5,754 nucleotides of DNA from Deltaproteobacteria bacterium (GTDB lineage: Bacteria > JAUYMQ01): assembly GCA_030698575.1 (NCBI GenBank), contig JAUYMQ010000231.1, forward strand, positions 1-5,754, given 5' to 3'. A program made the translations under genes and the position numbers. The notes below the pieces were generated by a model. It worked only from the letters and a program-made list of their open reading frames with translations, had not been told where the DNA came from and did not search any database. Positions 1-5,754 of this stretch are shown piece after piece; position 1 is the first letter of the stretch; every line of letters begins with the position of its first letter.

Positions 1-525
1 GGACTTGTTTTTCTTCTGGGGATGTCGCCGCAGTGCCGACGCACGGCGCCCAAGCCCACGCCGACGGAGCCGTCCGCGGAACCGGAAGACGCATTGGTTC
101 CCCCCACGATTCGATTCAGCCACAAGCTTCACGCCGAGCAATCAACGTGCCTGGCCTGCCACCTGGACGCGGAAGAGGGGAAATCGGCGGGCCAGCCGTC
201 TCTGGAAGATTGCACGGACTGCCACGACGGGGTGCAGTCGGAAGCGCCGGAGGATCAGATCGAGGAGGAGAAGCTGGCGTACTTCGTCGAGCGGGATATG
301 GAGATAGAATGGCCGAGACCGGCATTGCTGCTCTCGGGGATCATATTTTCGCATCAGGTCCACGTGGTCGAAGGGGAACTCGACTGCGGGGATTGTCACG
401 AAGACATCGCCGAGACCTCGACGCTTCCCGATCGGACGAACTTCAAATACGATCATGGCGTCTGCGGCGATTGTCACGAGGTGGACGAGACGGACGAAGT
501 TTGCCTGCTGTGCCATCCGCGCTAG
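1..525 (+). CDS. Pentahaem c-type cytochrome (c7/ActA-like), 5'-truncated by the window edge
   Basis: Predicted periplasmic electron-transfer protein carrying five covalently bound c haems. Counting from the ATG at 22 as residue 1, CXXCH motifs lie at residues 43-47 (CLACH), 64-68 (CTDCH), 122-126 (CGDCH), 148-152 (CGDCH) and 161-165 (CLLCH). Two FSHxxH motifs (32-37 and 109-114) and His145 supply five further histidines, so the protein has exactly ten His: enough for bis-His ligation of every haem. The reading frame is open to base 1 and encodes a short hydrophobic run (LVFLLG) just before Met1. The ATG at 22 has no properly spaced ribosome site, so the true start and the signal peptide or anchor probably lie to the left. 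A Pro/Glu-rich linker (about residues 10-28) follows, then an acidic linker with EDQIEEEKL (77-85) between the two haem modules. It ends 13 bases before its paralogue at 539. The cytochrome call is firm; the exact redox partner is inferred. Confidence 0.9.
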   Translation, partial: GLVFLLGMSPQCRRTAPKPTPTEPSAEPEDALVPPTIRFSHKLHAEQSTCLACHLDAEEGKSAGQPSLEDCTDCHDGVQSEAPEDQIEEEKLAYFVERDMEIEWPRPALLLSGIIFSHQVHVVEGELDCGDCHEDIAETSTLPDRTNFKYDHGVCGDCHEVDETDEVCLLCHPR

Positions 526-538
526 TGGGCTTTCTGCC

Positions 539-1093
539 ATGAGCCCGCGAAAGTTATCCTCGACTGGTGGAATTTCCCTGGGGGCCATCGCGCTCTTCGC
601 CGTAGTAACGCTCGGCGCCCTCGTCCTATCCGCCTCTTTCCTCTCGCCGAAATCCGACTCCGTCGCGCAGCCCATGCGCTTCAGCCACAAGGCGCACTTC
701 GAAGACGCAACCTGCGAGACCTGCCACCTGTACGTGATGGAGCTTGCGAGCGCCGGGACGCCCAGCCTGGAGGACTGTGTGGATTGTCACGACAATACAC
801 TTTCGGAGAATGCGGAGGATCAACTGGAAGAGAAGAAGCTCGAGAAGTACGCCGAGGAGGACACGGAGATTCCGTGGATCCATCTGCCGCGTCTCACGGC
901 GGACATCTACTTTTCGCACCGGATGCACGCGGGGCTCGGTGAGAAGCCGCTGGAATGCAAGAACTGCCACGGCGATATCGGGAAGAGCGAGACCCTTCCC
1001 CAGGAACGCCAAATCGCCTTCACGATGAGCTTCTGCGTGGACTGCCACGAGAAGCGCCAGGCGAGCAACGATTGCTTGATGTGTCACAGGTAG
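539..1093 (+). CDS. Membrane-anchored pentahaem c-type cytochrome, paralogue of the preceding gene
   Basis: A 184-residue predicted periplasmic cytochrome. A hydrophobic segment at residues 12-35 after a basic N-terminus is an uncleaved anchor or signal peptide. Five CXXCH motifs follow: 59-63 (CETCH), 80-84 (CVDCH), 140-144 (CKNCH), 166-170 (CVDCH) and 179-183 (CLMCH). FSHxxH motifs at 48-53 and 125-130 give four likely distal haem ligands. The fifth could be His115 or Met163. It aligns without gaps to the upstream cytochrome over the first 85 residues of the haem region (about 45 identities by hand count), and the spacing of the last three haem motifs is also identical. The start at 539 is chosen because it puts the basic N-terminus directly before the hydrophobic segment. 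The in-frame ATG at 455 would add 28 residues inside the upstream gene. The ribosome site is weak (GTGGG about 9 bases upstream), so translation may depend on the upstream gene. Length and architecture resemble the ActA-type cytochromes of alternative complex III. Confidence 0.92.
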   Translation: MSPRKLSSTGGISLGAIALFAVVTLGALVLSASFLSPKSDSVAQPMRFSHKAHFEDATCETCHLYVMELASAGTPSLEDCVDCHDNTLSENAEDQLEEKKLEKYAEEDTEIPWIHLPRLTADIYFSHRMHAGLGEKPLECKNCHGDIGKSETLPQERQIAFTMSFCVDCHEKRQASNDCLMCHR

Positions 1094-1097
1094 GAGA
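1092..1097 (+). promoter_or_regulatory. Ribosome binding site of the molybdoprotein gene
   Basis: AGGAGA overlaps the TAG stop of the pentahaem cytochrome (1091-1093) and lies five bases before ATG 1103. It fixes the start that carries the Tat signal and suggests translational coupling. Confidence 0.75.
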
Positions 1098-1102
1098 CCC
1101 CG

Positions 1103-3544
1103 ATGGAAATCACACGACGCCGGTTCCTGGGCCTGACGGGCGCGGCCGCCGGCCTCTCTCTCCTTCCGGCCGAGCTGGCCGAGCTGATCGGCCTGGCGAG
1201 CCACGAGGAGGAACGCTGGCCGGGACCCGGGGTCGAGACGTGGGTGAATACCGTGTGCCAGCTTTGCCCAGGCGGCTGCGGTCTGCGCGTGCGCCTTCTC
1301 GACGGGTGGCCGGTGCGCGTGAAGGGGAATCCCACCCACCCGATCAACCGGGGCGGGCTCTGCCTGAAGGGCGCGGCGTCGCTCCAGTCGCTCTACGACC
1401 CCGATCGCATCCGGCAGCCGCTCAAGCGCGTGGGGGAGCGGGGCGAGGGAAAATGGGAGGAGATCACCTGGGAGCAGGCGCTGGGAGAGATAACGCCGGT
1501 GCTCAAGCGCCTGCGCGAAGCGGGCCGTCCCGAGAGCCTGGTCGTGATACGCGGGCAGTTCCGCGGGCAGATGGAAGAGATCTGGAAACGATTCCTGGCC
1601 GCCTACGGCTCGCCCAACTACATCTCGCCCTCCGCCAGCTGCGCGACCTCCGACACGATTCTGTGGCTCACCCAGGGCATGCGGAGCCACATCGGCTACG
1701 ACCTCGAGCACACCAACTACCTGCTCGACTTCGGCGTGGGCCTGCTCGAGGCGAGCTGGTCGCCGGTCTGGCAGATGCGTGCCTTCGCCGAGCTTCGGCA
1801 GGGTCGCCCGGGTCAGCAGGTGAAGATCGTGCACGTGGATCCGAGATTCTCGATCACGGCGGCGAAGGCGGACGAATGGGTTCCCATCCGTCCCGGAACC
1901 GACGGGGCCCTGGCGCTGGGCATCGCGAACGTGCTCGTGCGCGAGGGACTCTGCGACAAGGACTTCCTCGCCGCGCGCACCTTCGGTTTCCACGACTGGG
2001 TGGACGGGGCGGGAAGGAAGCACGAAGGCTTCAGCACGATGGTGCTACGCGACTACCCGCCTTCCCGGGCGTCGGAGATCACGGGGATCAAGGAGAAGCG
2101 GATCGTGCGGATCGCGCGCGAGTTCGCGAGCCACCGGCCCGCCATCGCGATGGGAGACCGCGGCGTCCTGCGCTACTCCAACGGCTTCTACACCCGCTGG
2201 GCCATCCATTGCCTGAACGCGCTGGTCGGAAGCGTGGATATCCCGGGCGGGGTTCTCGTCCCGTCCGAAATCCCGTTCACGCCGCTCCCTCCGCTTCCGG
2301 CGGACCCGGTAGCCGAGGCAGGACGCGGGCGCCAGCGGCTGGACGGCGCGGGCTCGCACGGCGCGCCCCTCGCCTCCAGCGTGATCGATCGGCTGCCCGA
2401 GGCGATCAAGACCGGCGTGCCCTATCCGATCGAGGCGCTCTTCGTCTACTACGCGAACCCCCTCTTCTCGCTGTCCGAATCGCTGGGCATGCGCGAGGCG
2501 CTGGAGCGGGTCCCCTTCATCGTCAACTTCTCGCCCTACATGGACGAGACCGCGCAGATGGCCGACCTCATCCTGCCCGACCACAACTTCCTCGAACGCT
2601 GGCAGGACGATCCGACCCCGCCGAACGTCCCGTTCCCCGTTCTGGGCATCCGGCAGCCCGTCAGGCCGCCGCTCTACGACACCCAGGCGACTTCCGACGT
2701 GATCTTCCAGCTCGCCAAGTCGCTGGGCGATCCCGTCGCCGCGGCGTTCCCCTGGGAAAGCACGGAGGCCTTCCTGAAGGAACGGGTGCAGGGCGTGTAC
2801 GAAGCCGGGCGGGGGAAGATCGGCGCCCCTCCGGAATGGCCGTGGATGCCGCCGGAGGAGGAAGAGGAGACCGTTCCCGAGTCCTACGACGAGTTCTGGG
2901 CGAAGCTGCTTGAGCAGGGGGCCTGGTACGAACCGGAATACCTCTATGGCGATTGGCAGCGTACGCTGCGGACGCTATCGGGGCGTTTCGAGTTCTACTC
3001 ACAGAATCTCCGGACGTTGCTGACCACGGCGTCGAAAGAGGGGGGAGCCTCCGAACCCGCATTCGCGACACAGCAACCCCGGGGCGACGGCGCCTACCTG
3101 CCGCGTTTCGAGCCGCCGGAGCCCCTGGGCGACGCGGCGGAATACCCGCTCGTGCTGAACGTCTTCCGGCCGCTCGCGCTGATGGGAGGGCGCACCGCGA
3201 ACATGCCCTACCTGCTCGAGCGCGCGGGGCACCGCATGGGGTCCAACTGGGAGACCTGGATCGAGATCCACCCGGACACGGCCCAGCGCTACGGAATCAC
3301 CGACAAGTCGATGGTGTGGGTCGAGTCACCGCTGGGCAAGGTGAAGGCGCGGGCGCGGGCGCGGCTCCAGCCGGGCGCCCTCGAGGGCGTGGTGAGCATG
3401 CCCTTCGGACTGGGGCACAAGGAGGGAGGGCGCTGGGGCAAGGGAATCGGCGCCAATCCAAACCCGATCCTGGGAGCCACCCTGATGACCGTGACCGGCG
3501 AATCGGTTTCCCGCTTGACCCGGGTCCGGATCTCCGCGGCCTGA
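1103..3544 (+). CDS. Tat-exported molybdopterin oxidoreductase, DMSO reductase superfamily (Psr/Phs/ActB/QrcB-like catalytic subunit)
   Basis: An 813-residue predicted periplasmic catalytic subunit binding bis-MGD and one [4Fe-4S] cluster. The N-terminus has a twin-arginine signal (TRRRFLGL, residues 4-11) with a hydrophobic stretch to about 31. The cluster ligands are Cys52, Cys55, Cys59 and Cys87, followed by Lys89, the usual position of the basic residue between cluster and pterin. Cys180, in GSPNYISPSASC, sits where Psr/Phs-type enzymes place the Mo-coordinating cysteine. DEWVPIRPGTDGALALG (about 255-271) is a typical family segment. The C-terminal pterin-binding domain starts near residue 684, with GRTANMPYLLE resembling the ActB/QrcB branch, and GLGHKEGGRWGKG near 774-786. 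An acidic run, EEEEE, lies near 590. Start: AGGAGA at 1092-1097 is five bases upstream. The substrate is unknown: sulfur-oxyanion, polysulfide or other chemistry cannot be told apart by eye. The superfamily call is very secure; catalytic activity is inferred from retained ligands. Confidence 0.93.
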   Translation: MEITRRRFLGLTGAAAGLSLLPAELAELIGLASHEEERWPGPGVETWVNTVCQLCPGGCGLRVRLLDGWPVRVKGNPTHPINRGGLCLKGAASLQSLYDPDRIRQPLKRVGERGEGKWEEITWEQALGEITPVLKRLREAGRPESLVVIRGQFRGQMEEIWKRFLAAYGSPNYISPSASCATSDTILWLTQGMRSHIGYDLEHTNYLLDFGVGLLEASWSPVWQMRAFAELRQGRPGQQVKIVHVDPRFSITAAKADEWVPIRPGTDGALALGIANVLVREGLCDKDFLAARTFGFHDWVDGAGRKHEGFSTMVLRDYPPSRASEITGIKEKRIVRIAREFASHRPAIAMGDRGVLRYSNGFYTRWAIHCLNALVGSVDIPGGVLVPSEIPFTPLPPLPADPVAEAGRGRQRLDGAGSHGAPLASSVIDRLPEAIKTGVPYPIEALFVYYANPLFSLSESLGMREALERVPFIVNFSPYMDETAQMADLILPDHNFLERWQDDPTPPNVPFPVLGIRQPVRPPLYDTQATSDVIFQLAKSLGDPVAAAFPWESTEAFLKERVQGVYEAGRGKIGAPPEWPWMPPEEEEETVPESYDEFWAKLLEQGAWYEPEYLYGDWQRTLRTLSGRFEFYSQNLRTLLTTASKEGGASEPAFATQQPRGDGAYLPRFEPPEPLGDAAEYPLVLNVFRPLALMGGRTANMPYLLERAGHRMGSNWETWIEIHPDTAQRYGITDKSMVWVESPLGKVKARARARLQPGALEGVVSMPFGLGHKEGGRWGKGIGANPNPILGATLMTVTGESVSRLTRVRISAA

Positions 3545-3549
3545 GGAGG
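3543..3549 (+). promoter_or_regulatory. Ribosome binding site of the FeS subunit gene
   Basis: GAGGAGG overlaps the TGA stop of the molybdoprotein gene (3542-3544) and is five bases before ATG 3555. It decides between ATG 3555 and the out-of-frame ATG 3551, and places the site on the upstream gene's stop codon. Confidence 0.8.
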
Positions 3550-3554
3550 CATGG

Positions 3555-4268
3555 ATGGCGCGATACGGCATGGTGATCGATCTGAACCGCTGCGTGGGCT
3601 GCCAGTCATGCGCGGTCGCCTGCAAGGTGGAGAACAACGTCCGGTTCTCGACACCGGAGGAGGCGAGTCATGGGCGCGAGATCCAGTGGATGCAGGTACT
3701 ACCCGTTGCGGAGGGAGAGTTTCCCAACGTCGTGGAAACGTTCATCCCGGTGCTCTGCAACCATTGTGAGAACCCGAGCTGTGTTCCCGTCTGCCCGACG
3801 GGGGCGACCTACCAGAGCGAGGCAACCGGGATCATCGGGCAGGTCTATACTCGCTGCATCGGCTGCCGGTTCTGCGCCGTGGCGTGTCCCTACATGGCCC
3901 GATACTTCAACTGGTCCAAGCCCCACTGGCCTGAGGAGATGAAAGCCAGGCTCAACCCCGATGTCTCCACGCGCACGAAGAGCGTCATCGAGAAATGCAC
4001 CTTCTGCTCCCATCGGCTGCCGAGGGCGCGTGAGCAGGCCCTCTCTGAGGGGCGCAAGCTGAGGGACGGCGACTATGTGACCGCGTGCATGGAGGCCTGC
4101 CCGACAAGGGCGATCGTTTTCGGCGACCTGGACGACTCGAACAGCCGTGTCGCAGTGCTGTCCCGGGGCCACCGAGCCAAGCGTCTCCGGGAAGAGCTGG
4201 GGAATGAGCCGAAGGTATTCTACCTGGATCAGCAGGGAGGATGGGATGTCGACAACAACGACGGCTGA
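3555..4268 (+). CDS. Four-cluster [4Fe-4S] ferredoxin-like electron-transfer subunit (DmsB/PsrB/NrfC type)
   Basis: A 237-residue predicted electron-wire subunit between the molybdoprotein and the membrane quinone subunit. Sixteen cysteines fall in four groups: 13/16/19/23 (CVGCQSCAVAC), 68/71/76/80 (CNHCENPSCVPVC), 101/104/107/111 (CIGCRFCAVAC) and 148/151/178/182. In this family the last cysteine of each group is shared crosswise, giving four [4Fe-4S] clusters. No ligand is missing and none is replaced, unlike relatives that hold a [3Fe-4S] cluster. There is no signal peptide, which fits co-export with the Tat-bearing Mo subunit, as known for this family. The start at 3555 is set by GAGGAGG at 3543-3549, five bases upstream and overlapping the previous stop; an overlapping ATG at 3551 is in another frame. 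The C-terminal tail overlaps the start of the next gene. In canonical alternative complex III this module is fused to the Mo-like domain, whereas here it is separate. Confidence 0.95.
   Translation: MARYGMVIDLNRCVGCQSCAVACKVENNVRFSTPEEASHGREIQWMQVLPVAEGEFPNVVETFIPVLCNHCENPSCVPVCPTGATYQSEATGIIGQVYTRCIGCRFCAVACPYMARYFNWSKPHWPEEMKARLNPDVSTRTKSVIEKCTFCSHRLPRAREQALSEGRKLRDGDYVTACMEACPTRAIVFGDLDDSNSRVAVLSRGHRAKRLREELGNEPKVFYLDQQGGWDVDNNDG
4236..4240 (+). promoter_or_regulatory. Ribosome binding site of the NrfD-like gene, inside the FeS subunit gene
   Basis: GGAGG five bases before ATG 4246 lies within the coding sequence of the FeS subunit. It favours the overlapping start at 4246 over the in-frame ATG 4270, whose upstream bases show no comparable site. 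Confidence 0.75.
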
Positions 4269-4293
4269 GATGTCGATCACGACGACGGTCGAG
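4246..4293 (+). repeat. Imperfect 24-base tandem duplication at the start of the NrfD-like gene
   Basis: Bases 4246-4269 and 4270-4293 match at 19 of 24 positions. In the membrane-subunit frame they encode MSTTTTAE and MSITTTVE, each beginning with ATG. The first copy also encodes the last residues and the stop of the FeS subunit in its own frame. The repeat is seen directly; that it arose by duplication is inferred. Confidence 0.6.
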
Positions 4294-5754
4294 AGCGAAC
4301 CGCCCTTCCCGACGGAAGTAGAAGACGTTCCCCGGTTCGATCAGCGGCTGTTACTCGCCGCGATCCCGCTGACCCTGCTCGTGCTGGTCGCGGCTTACTT
4401 CTACTTCGTCCAGATCAGCCGTGGAATCGGCCTGGTCGCGGGGCTGAACCGTCCGGTGTTCTGGGGGCTCTACCTCGTCAATTGCATCTTCTTCGTCGGG
4501 GTGAGCACCGGCGGGGTCGTGATCGCCTCGCTCGTGCACGCCTTCGGGCGCATGGAGTTCAAGCCGATCGCGCGCATCGCCGAGCTTATGGCGATCAGCG
4601 CCACCGTGATGGCCACCGCGTCGCTCTTCGTCAACCTCTGCTGGCCGACGCGCATGTTCTACATCCTGCGCTACCCCCACCCGACCTCGCCGATCTTCTG
4701 GGACATGGTGAACATCACCCTGTACATGTTCATTAGCCTCACTTATGCCTATCTGGGGACGCGCGCGGACCTCGCCCGCGTCATGCACGCGAAGCCCCAG
4801 CACGCGTGGCTGTATCGCCTGCTCACGCTGGGGTACACCGATCTGTCCGTGGAAGCGCGGCGGCGCGATCAGCGGCTTCTGCGCATGCTGGCCGTGGCGG
4901 TTCTTTTCACCGAGGTGGCGGTGCAAACGGTCAGCGCCTGGCTCTTCGGACTCCAGAAGGCGCAGCCCGGCTGGTTCGGGGGGATGATGGCGCCGCTCTT
5001 CATCGTGTTCGCCGTCGTCTCAGGGCTGGCGGTTCTGACGGTTTCCCTGGTCGCGACGAAAAGGATCGTCGGGATAGCCATCGAGCACGAACTCGTCCGC
5101 AAGCTCGGGAAGATCGTGCTCTTCCTGCTCCCCGTGCTGGGCTACTTCCTTTTCGTGGAGATGGTCACGGTTCTGTACAGTGCGGAGCCCGCCCGGCTGG
5201 ATGTCTATCGTGCCATGATGTTCGGCCTCTATGCTCCGGTGTTCTGGGGTCACCTGGTCCTCGGCTTGATCTTCCCGATTCTCCTTCTGACGGTGATTCT
5301 GTACGGCGTCTCGCAGCGCACGATCTGGCTCACGGGAATTATCTTGCTCCACGTGTTGGTCGGCCTCGCGACGTGGCTCGACTTCCCGATACCCTACAAG
5401 CCGCTCTGGCCGGGCCTCCAGGTCTGGGCGGTATACACCATCATGGGGCTTACGGGGCTCGGACTTCTTTCATTCTGCGCCCGAGCCAGCGTCGGTGAAG
5501 ACGTGCGAATTGGCATTGCAGCGCTTCTCGTGGCCGCGGGGATCCTGGCCGGGCGGTGGAACATCGTCGTGCCCTCTCTCATGGATCACTCTTACCTTCC
5601 CTACCCGCTTACGCAATACATACCCACGCTCAAGGAGTTCGCCGTCTTTCTGGGCATATACGCGCTGGGAGCGCTTATCTACATCGCCTGCATCGTCATC
5701 TTGCCTCTCCTGGATCGCGAGGAGGCCGAGATAGAAATCGTGAATGAGGAGCGC
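4246..5754 (+). CDS. NrfD/ActC/QrcD-like integral membrane quinone-interacting subunit, 3'-open at the window edge
   Basis: 503 codons run to the window edge with no stop. About ten to twelve hydrophobic helices can be seen, near residues 36-57, 70-98, 109-131, 150-171, 211-235, 247-270, 288-311, 326-353, 358-378, 391-411, 421-441 and 464-489. The number is an eye estimate, consistent with the larger ActC/QrcD/HybB-type members rather than eight-helix PsrC. Family-like stretches are SPIFWDMVNITLYM (148-161) and PGWFGGMMAPLFIVFAVVSG (241-260). His98 and Asp153 are candidates for the quinone site. The charged, acidic end (residues 490-503) after the last helix suggests that only a few residues are missing. 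Start: GGAGG at 4236-4240 is five bases before ATG 4246, giving a 23-base overlap with the upstream gene. ATG 4270 is in frame but lacks a good site. The expected role is quinol oxidation or quinone reduction, possibly with proton translocation; the direction is unknown. Confidence 0.93.
   Translation, partial: MSTTTTAEMSITTTVESEPPFPTEVEDVPRFDQRLLLAAIPLTLLVLVAAYFYFVQISRGIGLVAGLNRPVFWGLYLVNCIFFVGVSTGGVVIASLVHAFGRMEFKPIARIAELMAISATVMATASLFVNLCWPTRMFYILRYPHPTSPIFWDMVNITLYMFISLTYAYLGTRADLARVMHAKPQHAWLYRLLTLGYTDLSVEARRRDQRLLRMLAVAVLFTEVAVQTVSAWLFGLQKAQPGWFGGMMAPLFIVFAVVSGLAVLTVSLVATKRIVGIAIEHELVRKLGKIVLFLLPVLGYFLFVEMVTVLYSAEPARLDVYRAMMFGLYAPVFWGHLVLGLIFPILLLTVILYGVSQRTIWLTGIILLHVLVGLATWLDFPIPYKPLWPGLQVWAVYTIMGLTGLGLLSFCARASVGEDVRIGIAALLVAAGILAGRWNIVVPSLMDHSYLPYPLTQYIPTLKEFAVFLGIYALGALIYIACIVILPLLDREEAEIEIVNEER

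Follow-up and report, generated by a model that had tools for sequence, protein, structure and literature searches.

The 5,754-base contig JAUYMQ010000231.1 (C19), analyzed here over its full length and referred to as the window, comes from a draft genome labelled Deltaproteobacteria and carries five genes that encode two pentaheme c-type cytochromes (C1 and C2), a molybdopterin-type large subunit (Mo1), a four-cluster iron-sulfur (FeS) subunit (FeS1) and an NrfD-type membrane subunit (NrfD1). We tentatively favor, at somewhat short of an even chance, the interpretation that these genes encode a quinone-linked periplasmic complex of the group that includes alternative complex III (ACIII) and Qrc, organized in three tandem modules, with a heme wire of the ActA type and a possibly working molybdenum (Mo) site. 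We see the novelty of this system in a retained Mo ligand next to an ActA-type cytochrome, in the threefold tandem arrangement, in an NrfD of different ancestry from Mo and in a cytochrome with His in place of Met, not in the unfused layout of the Mo and FeS parts. The latter had been singled out as a distinguishing trait in the first-pass annotation, made from the sequence alone; the two parts are indeed separate genes, but this is standard in Qrc, where QrcB and QrcC are separate proteins, and split ActB1/ActB2 are found in published ACIII-like clusters (PMC4643136, PMC12342949, PMC9386147), among them those of iron oxidizers and Nitrospirales, for which a missing ActF has likewise been reported (PMC4643136, PMC12342949).

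The source of the window is a metagenome-assembled genome (MAG) of 4.13 Mb in 653 contigs, 91.6% complete with 4.6% contamination. Its RpoB is 70-71% identical to those of several genomes labelled Deltaproteobacteria, and the 98 comparison genomes are related to the host at the domain level only. All five genes lie on the same strand in the order first described, tightly spaced, with intergenic gaps of 13, 9 and 10 bases and an overlap between the 3' end of FeS1 and the start of NrfD1 (Table 1).

The predicted molybdenum site and the cytochromes

The N-terminus of Mo1 carries a twin-arginine translocation (Tat) signal (MEITRRRFLGLTG), and Mo2 and Mo3 have a Tat signal as well. Mo1 comprises an FS0, a molybdopterin and a dinucleotide-binding domain. 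Family models do not discriminate sharply among the relatives of this protein: QrcB (308 bits), PhsA (307) and ArrA (289) are nearly tied, and all remain under the respective curated cut-offs (440, 694 and 1600). The structure model of Mo1 (predicted local distance difference test score 87.9) gives Z 45.1 to ArrA over 728 residues, 36.9 to PsrA and 29-31 to ActB; the PDB fold lists were restricted to Foldseek candidates, and a family's absence from them was never counted as evidence. In the alignment, Cys180 of Mo1 falls on the Mo-ligating Cys of ArrA (6cz7) and is offset by one residue from that of PsrA (2vpw); the sequence contains both this Cys and the four-Cys FS0 motif typical of ArrA/PsrA-type molybdoenzymes, in agreement with the initial impression of an intact Mo site. 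Mo1 may possibly bind Mo at Cys180.

A search across 84,980 species genomes recovered 80 loci of the family. Cys occupies the Mo-ligand position in 18 of 82 Mo sequences, the three copies of the window array included, and is lacking in the other 64. Apart from Mo1-3, the Cys-bearing sequences are L072 (Nitrospinota), L074, L076 and L077 (Methylomirabilota), L095, L115 and those of a group of operons without cytochromes. Most cytochrome-bearing relatives have lost the ligand Cys; L072, L074 and L076 combine it with an adjoining pentaheme cytochrome. Within the array, Cys180 is retained in paralogues that are only 62-66% identical and differ in the flanking residues (SPSASC, ATTLGC and SMAMGC), as are D267 and R353 in all three copies and R697 in two. 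Nearly every Cys-bearing sequence retains these three residues, which are less strictly conserved in the others. On the 41-row tree, the history of the ligand Cys involves five changes.

The two cytochromes of the window are paralogues with 46% identity, so that the duplication noticed at first sight is genuine. Both contain five CXXCH motifs and belong to the ActA type found in ACIII, as indicated by sequence matches of C2 to ActA chains (5e-17 to 3e-12) and by matches of the C1 structure model to the ActA chains in four structures of ACIII (Z 11.7-12.2), with no others among the matches listed. The QrcA model matches C1 with E 5.5e-19 (68 of the 180 bits needed) and C2 with E 2.9e-28 (99 of 180). 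Membrane anchors are found on C2, C3 and C4. With C2 as the query, no side-by-side matches were detected among the 48 family-holding genomes.

The paralogues differ at a position that appears to matter for heme ligation. A Met three residues ahead of heme motif 4 is present in 62 of the 64 five-heme cytochromes of our set, including ActA and QrcA. C2 keeps it (Met163, nucleotides 1025-1027), whereas C1 has His152 there (nucleotides 454-456) and is the sole cytochrome of the 64 with His alone at this position. ActA contains one His/Met heme, at the entry from FeS1 of ACIII, and most of its other hemes are bis-His (PMC5928083). The Met preceding heme motif 4 is presumably a heme ligand, and all hemes of C1 are predicted to be bis-His.

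The tandem array and its mosaic ancestry

The window continues into two further contigs. C19 ends in 123 bases that open contig C36, and C36 in turn ends in 119 bases that open contig C246, both overlaps being exact and NrfD1 and Mo2 remaining in frame across the two joins. The resulting stretch of 14,933 bases encompasses C1-C2-Mo1-FeS1-NrfD1, followed by a monoheme cytochrome c-C3-Mo2-FeS2-NrfD2 and by C4-Mo3-FeS3 (cut). The monoheme cytochrome c, C3 and Mo2 are located on C36, and the end of Mo2, FeS2, NrfD2, C4, Mo3 and the start of FeS3 on C246. Identity between modules is 62-66% for Mo, 67% for FeS, 81% for C3/C4 and 60% for C2/C3. The C3 (L036:750-1265) and C4 (L034:2845-3360) genes are thus closer to each other than the neighboring Mo genes (66%), as could result from gene conversion or uneven constraint.

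Contig searches upstream of base 1 of C19 and downstream of C246 found no continuation. Extension of the contig had been proposed as the way to find ActD, ActE and ActF homologues; it yielded the monoheme cytochrome c between the first and second modules, which could act as ActE, and otherwise module copies, with neither ActD nor ActF in the 15 kb covered before either end of the joined contigs is reached. Within this stretch, the flank shows no ordinary Act or Qrc operon, and the subunits do not all fall firmly inside one characterized family. In locus L143, an NrfD gene lies just upstream of a full module, so partial tandems exist in other genomes.

The 80 loci come from Nitrospinota, Methylomirabilota, Rokubacteria, 'Deltaproteobacteria', Acidobacteria, Chloroflexi, Bacteroidetes/Ignavibacteria, Zixibacteria, archaea and others. 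Most have the arrangement pentaheme cytochrome-Mo-FeS-NrfD, often with tetraheme cytochromes downstream, and a minority consist of Mo-FeS-NrfD without a cytochrome. In four loci from delta-type genomes (L081, L086, L091 and L092), a second FeS-NrfD pair and a tetraheme cytochrome are encoded directly upstream of the cytochrome-Mo-FeS-NrfD operon. Cytochrome-free operons with the ligand Cys also occur in archaea (L100, L104 and L109).

Phylogenetic analysis of Mo (FastTree and a 41-row IQ-TREE quick search) places the three tandem copies in a single clade (support 100), which groups weakly and inconclusively (94) with Methylomirabilota proteins from cytochrome-bearing operons; L073, among the nearest Mo relatives, lacks the ligand Cys. 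The NrfD copies sit in the group of cytochrome-free Mo operons (100/99). In approximately unbiased (AU) tests, a clade of the window Mo with the cytochrome-free group was rejected (AU p 0.009), as was a clade of the window NrfD with NrfDs from the cytochrome-bearing operons of Methylomirabilota (AU p 1.7e-41); these p-values are optimistic because the tree groups were named only after inspection of the first trees, the NrfD result being large enough to be independent of the post hoc grouping and the Mo result moderate. On these phylogenies, the module is a mosaic, with NrfD and Mo of different ancestry. In both of the cytochrome-free operons checked, a PF02613 (TorD-type) chaperone gene follows NrfD.

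The remaining subunits are complete. All 16 Cys residues of FeS1 are conserved, and the QrcC model matches it with E 1.1e-84 (284 of the 400 bits needed). For NrfD1, the DsrP model reaches 115 of the 350 bits needed, and sequence matches in the PDB are to ActC chains only. The QrcD model is absent from the matches of the window, whereas the same library gives 750 bits in a control Qrc operon (L182), in which QrcA and QrcB score 274 and 970 bits. In QrcD, S138 and Y150 are essential, as are D70 and Y110 (PMC13059093); the positions of S138 and Y150 are conserved in NrfD.

Compared with described systems, the array shares with ACIII the ActA-type pentaheme cytochrome, the Mo-like and four-cluster FeS parts, an NrfD-type subunit and a clustered monoheme cytochrome c. 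It differs from ACIII in keeping the Mo-ligand Cys, in its three modules, in the His-for-Met substitution of one cytochrome and in an NrfD of another lineage, as well as from the classical ActB fusion in having Mo and FeS as separate genes. In an MBNT15 genome, actABCD occurs twice within an ACIII-like cluster (PMC9386147). With QrcABCD, the array has in common the A-B-C-D order and separate Mo-like and FeS subunits; QrcA and QrcC are the best NCBIfam matches of C1/C2 and FeS1, and QrcB is marginally the best for Mo1. Unlike in Qrc, however, the window scores are all under the curated cut-offs and NrfD is not QrcD, and genuine QrcABCD sequences with their near relatives form a clade of their own in the cytochrome and FeS trees and, less well supported, in the Mo tree. 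The ArrAB and PsrABC/PhsABC enzymes share with Mo1 the fold, the Tat signal, FS0 and the Cys ligand, but the window operon includes pentaheme cytochromes and scores far under the ArrA and PhsA cut-offs. The uncharacterized cytochrome-free Mo-FeS-NrfD operons (L075, L078, L083, L101, L107, L136/G097 and L187/G365) have the nearest NrfDs and the same Cys ligand; they differ from the window in lacking an adjoining pentaheme cytochrome, and their Mo subunits form a separate clade.

Three assignments were rejected. Canonical QrcABCD is contradicted by the QrcA, QrcB and QrcC scores under the cut-offs, the lack of a QrcD match and the absence of D70 and Y110; canonical ACIII by missing key features, the ActB fusion in particular; and arsenate reductase by the ArrA score (289 of 1600 bits) and the absence of what we take to be the arsenate-pocket residues. 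The operon is, as initially proposed, a less studied member of the wider ACIII/Qrc group. Our literature search, which covered few subscription journals, found no ACIII- or Qrc-like complex described as having kept its Mo ligand.

Proposed electron transfer and competing interpretations

Under the scheme that we favor, the subunits would be exported and assembled as one complex, in which NrfD would bind (mena)quinol at the periplasmic face and electrons from the quinol would reach the FeS subunit at its first cluster, the presumed branch point; in ACIII, the heme and FeS wires diverge at FeS1 (PMC5928083). One branch would pass through the hemes of the ActA-type pentaheme cytochrome to a soluble cytochrome, for which the monoheme cytochrome c encoded ahead of C3 is a candidate. 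The other branch, operating in addition or instead, would lead through the other FeS clusters and FS0 to a Cys-ligated Mo-bis(molybdopterin guanine dinucleotide) in the large subunit. C1 would either lengthen the heme wire or take its place, probably at a lower potential. Electron flow from quinol to cytochrome appears more likely than the reverse, and the genome encodes two heme-copper oxidase subunit I genes, so that a sink for cytochrome c exists. The complex may have a catalytic role, as had been suggested.

ACIII is thought to derive from an Arr-like Mo complex through metal loss (PMC10100899). Because the large subunit keeps the Mo-ligand Cys, the complex may be a working intermediate between Mo reductases and their metal-free relatives. 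In its full form, which we regard as conceivable but doubtful, this proposal implies a Mo-active, cytochrome-bearing intermediate between the Arr/Psr Mo reductases and metal-free ACIII/Qrc, tandem-tripled and with cytochromes of differing heme ligation, in which quinol electrons would split at the first FeS cluster between a heme wire and a live Mo site. The presence of an ActA-type cytochrome and a Mo ligand in one relative makes the order of events, with cytochrome gain first and metal loss later, testable. If the proposal is true, a Mo site and a heme wire would share a single quinone module, in a family whose members are widespread among uncultured phyla of groundwater and sediment and for which biochemistry is largely lacking in the published literature we found.

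Several observations weigh against an active Mo site or an unaltered quinone site. R697 is replaced by Ser in Mo3. The contrast between Cys-bearing and other sequences at the remaining Mo-site residues comprises three supported independent pairs, its link to the Cys being inseparable from ancestry, so the co-occurrence is a description and no test. The residues that we take to line the ArrA pocket (R165, H189 and K198) are not kept in the Mo1 alignment. There is no chaperone gene in the 15 kb array, and the two PF02613 genes of the genome adjoin other molybdoenzymes. NrfD lacks D70 and Y110 of QrcD, as do nearly all relatives and ActC. The position of QrcD D120 is occupied by Asp in every one of the 61 + 9 relatives tabulated, by His in ActC, and by Asn in NrfD1 (nucleotides 4633-4635) and NrfD2. 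With D70 and Y110 absent and an otherwise invariant Asp replaced, the quinone site may be altered.

Some of these observations would fit an ordinary ACIII- or Qrc-like electron carrier, with a metal-free scaffold as the large subunit, Cys180 as a leftover and the copies serving dosage or differing cytochrome partners. The Mo cofactor is absent from ActB and QrcB (PMC5928083, PMC6303296), and ActB is reported to be closest to ArrAB and to have lost this cofactor (PMC10100899); most cytochrome-bearing relatives lack the Cys and yet keep the operon; and the lack of a chaperone gene in the array and of the Cys in L073 points the same way. We nevertheless consider this explanation less likely than the favored one, given that Cys, D267 and R353 persist in three paralogues that are about 35-38% diverged and that the Cys is also present in the cytochrome-adjoining L072, L074 and L076, a pattern of retention that hardly looks like chance.

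Rather improbable is a Psr/Arr-type Mo reductase or oxidase in which cytochromes replace quinone as the main partner, so that electrons would pass from a periplasmic substrate to cytochrome c or in reverse. The ArrA-like fold and Cys ligand, the placement of NrfD among cytochrome-free, chaperone-linked Mo operons and the Asp to Asn change in both NrfD copies are compatible with such an enzyme. However, the NrfD and FeS subunits are complete, a quinone role is the rule in the family, and no gene context indicative of a substrate is visible before the contigs end. Finally, it is very hard to credit that the array is a metagenome assembly artefact and the window a single module with a duplicated cytochrome, as might be suspected from the fragmented and partly contaminated MAG, the short contigs and the missing third NrfD, because the exact in-frame joins fall within genes whose paralogues differ in sequence there and C246 alone spans the end of a Mo gene, FeS2, NrfD2, C4 and Mo3.

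Annotated features and other molybdoenzymes of the genome

Table 1. Features of the window, with positions in bases of the 5,754-base contig
Feature	Position	Strand	Evidence or remark
C1, pentaheme c-type cytochrome (ActA/QrcA type)	1..525	+	5 CXXCH, PF14522 9.6e-13; 5' end lost at contig edge
C2, pentaheme c-type cytochrome (ActA/QrcA type)	539..1093	+	5 CXXCH; N-terminal membrane helix (hydropathy)
Mo1, molybdopterin-type subunit (ActB1/QrcB-like, ArrA-like fold), 813 aa	1103..3544	+	PF04879, PF00384, PF01568; twin-arginine signal
FS0 cluster motif of Mo1, C52-C55-C59-C87	1256..1363	+	Invariant in 7-row alignment; CCCC in nearly all relatives
Predicted Mo-ligand Cys180 of Mo1	1640..1642	+	Alignment with ArrA (6cz7) and PsrA (2vpw)
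FeS1, four-cluster FeS subunit (QrcC/NrfC/ActB2-like)	3555..4268	+	16 Cys in four sets
NrfD1, NrfD-type membrane subunit	4246..5754, frame continues 27 bases into C36 to stop	+	PF03916, E 4e-35
Exact C19/C36 overlap, 123 bases	5632..5754	+	Identical to start of contig C36

The same genome contains, on contig C457 (L185:1-2962), a separate pair of genes for a pentaheme cytochrome and a Mo-like (ActB-like) subunit, which groups with ACIII and ends at the contig edge. The genome also encodes several molybdoenzymes of the dimethyl sulfoxide (DMSO) reductase type II, including large subunits at L192:2075-5035 (C330) and L191:1715-4573 (C145) with FeS genes alongside; these two proteins are near the ethylbenzene dehydrogenase model, with 1263 and 632 of 2000 bits, respectively.

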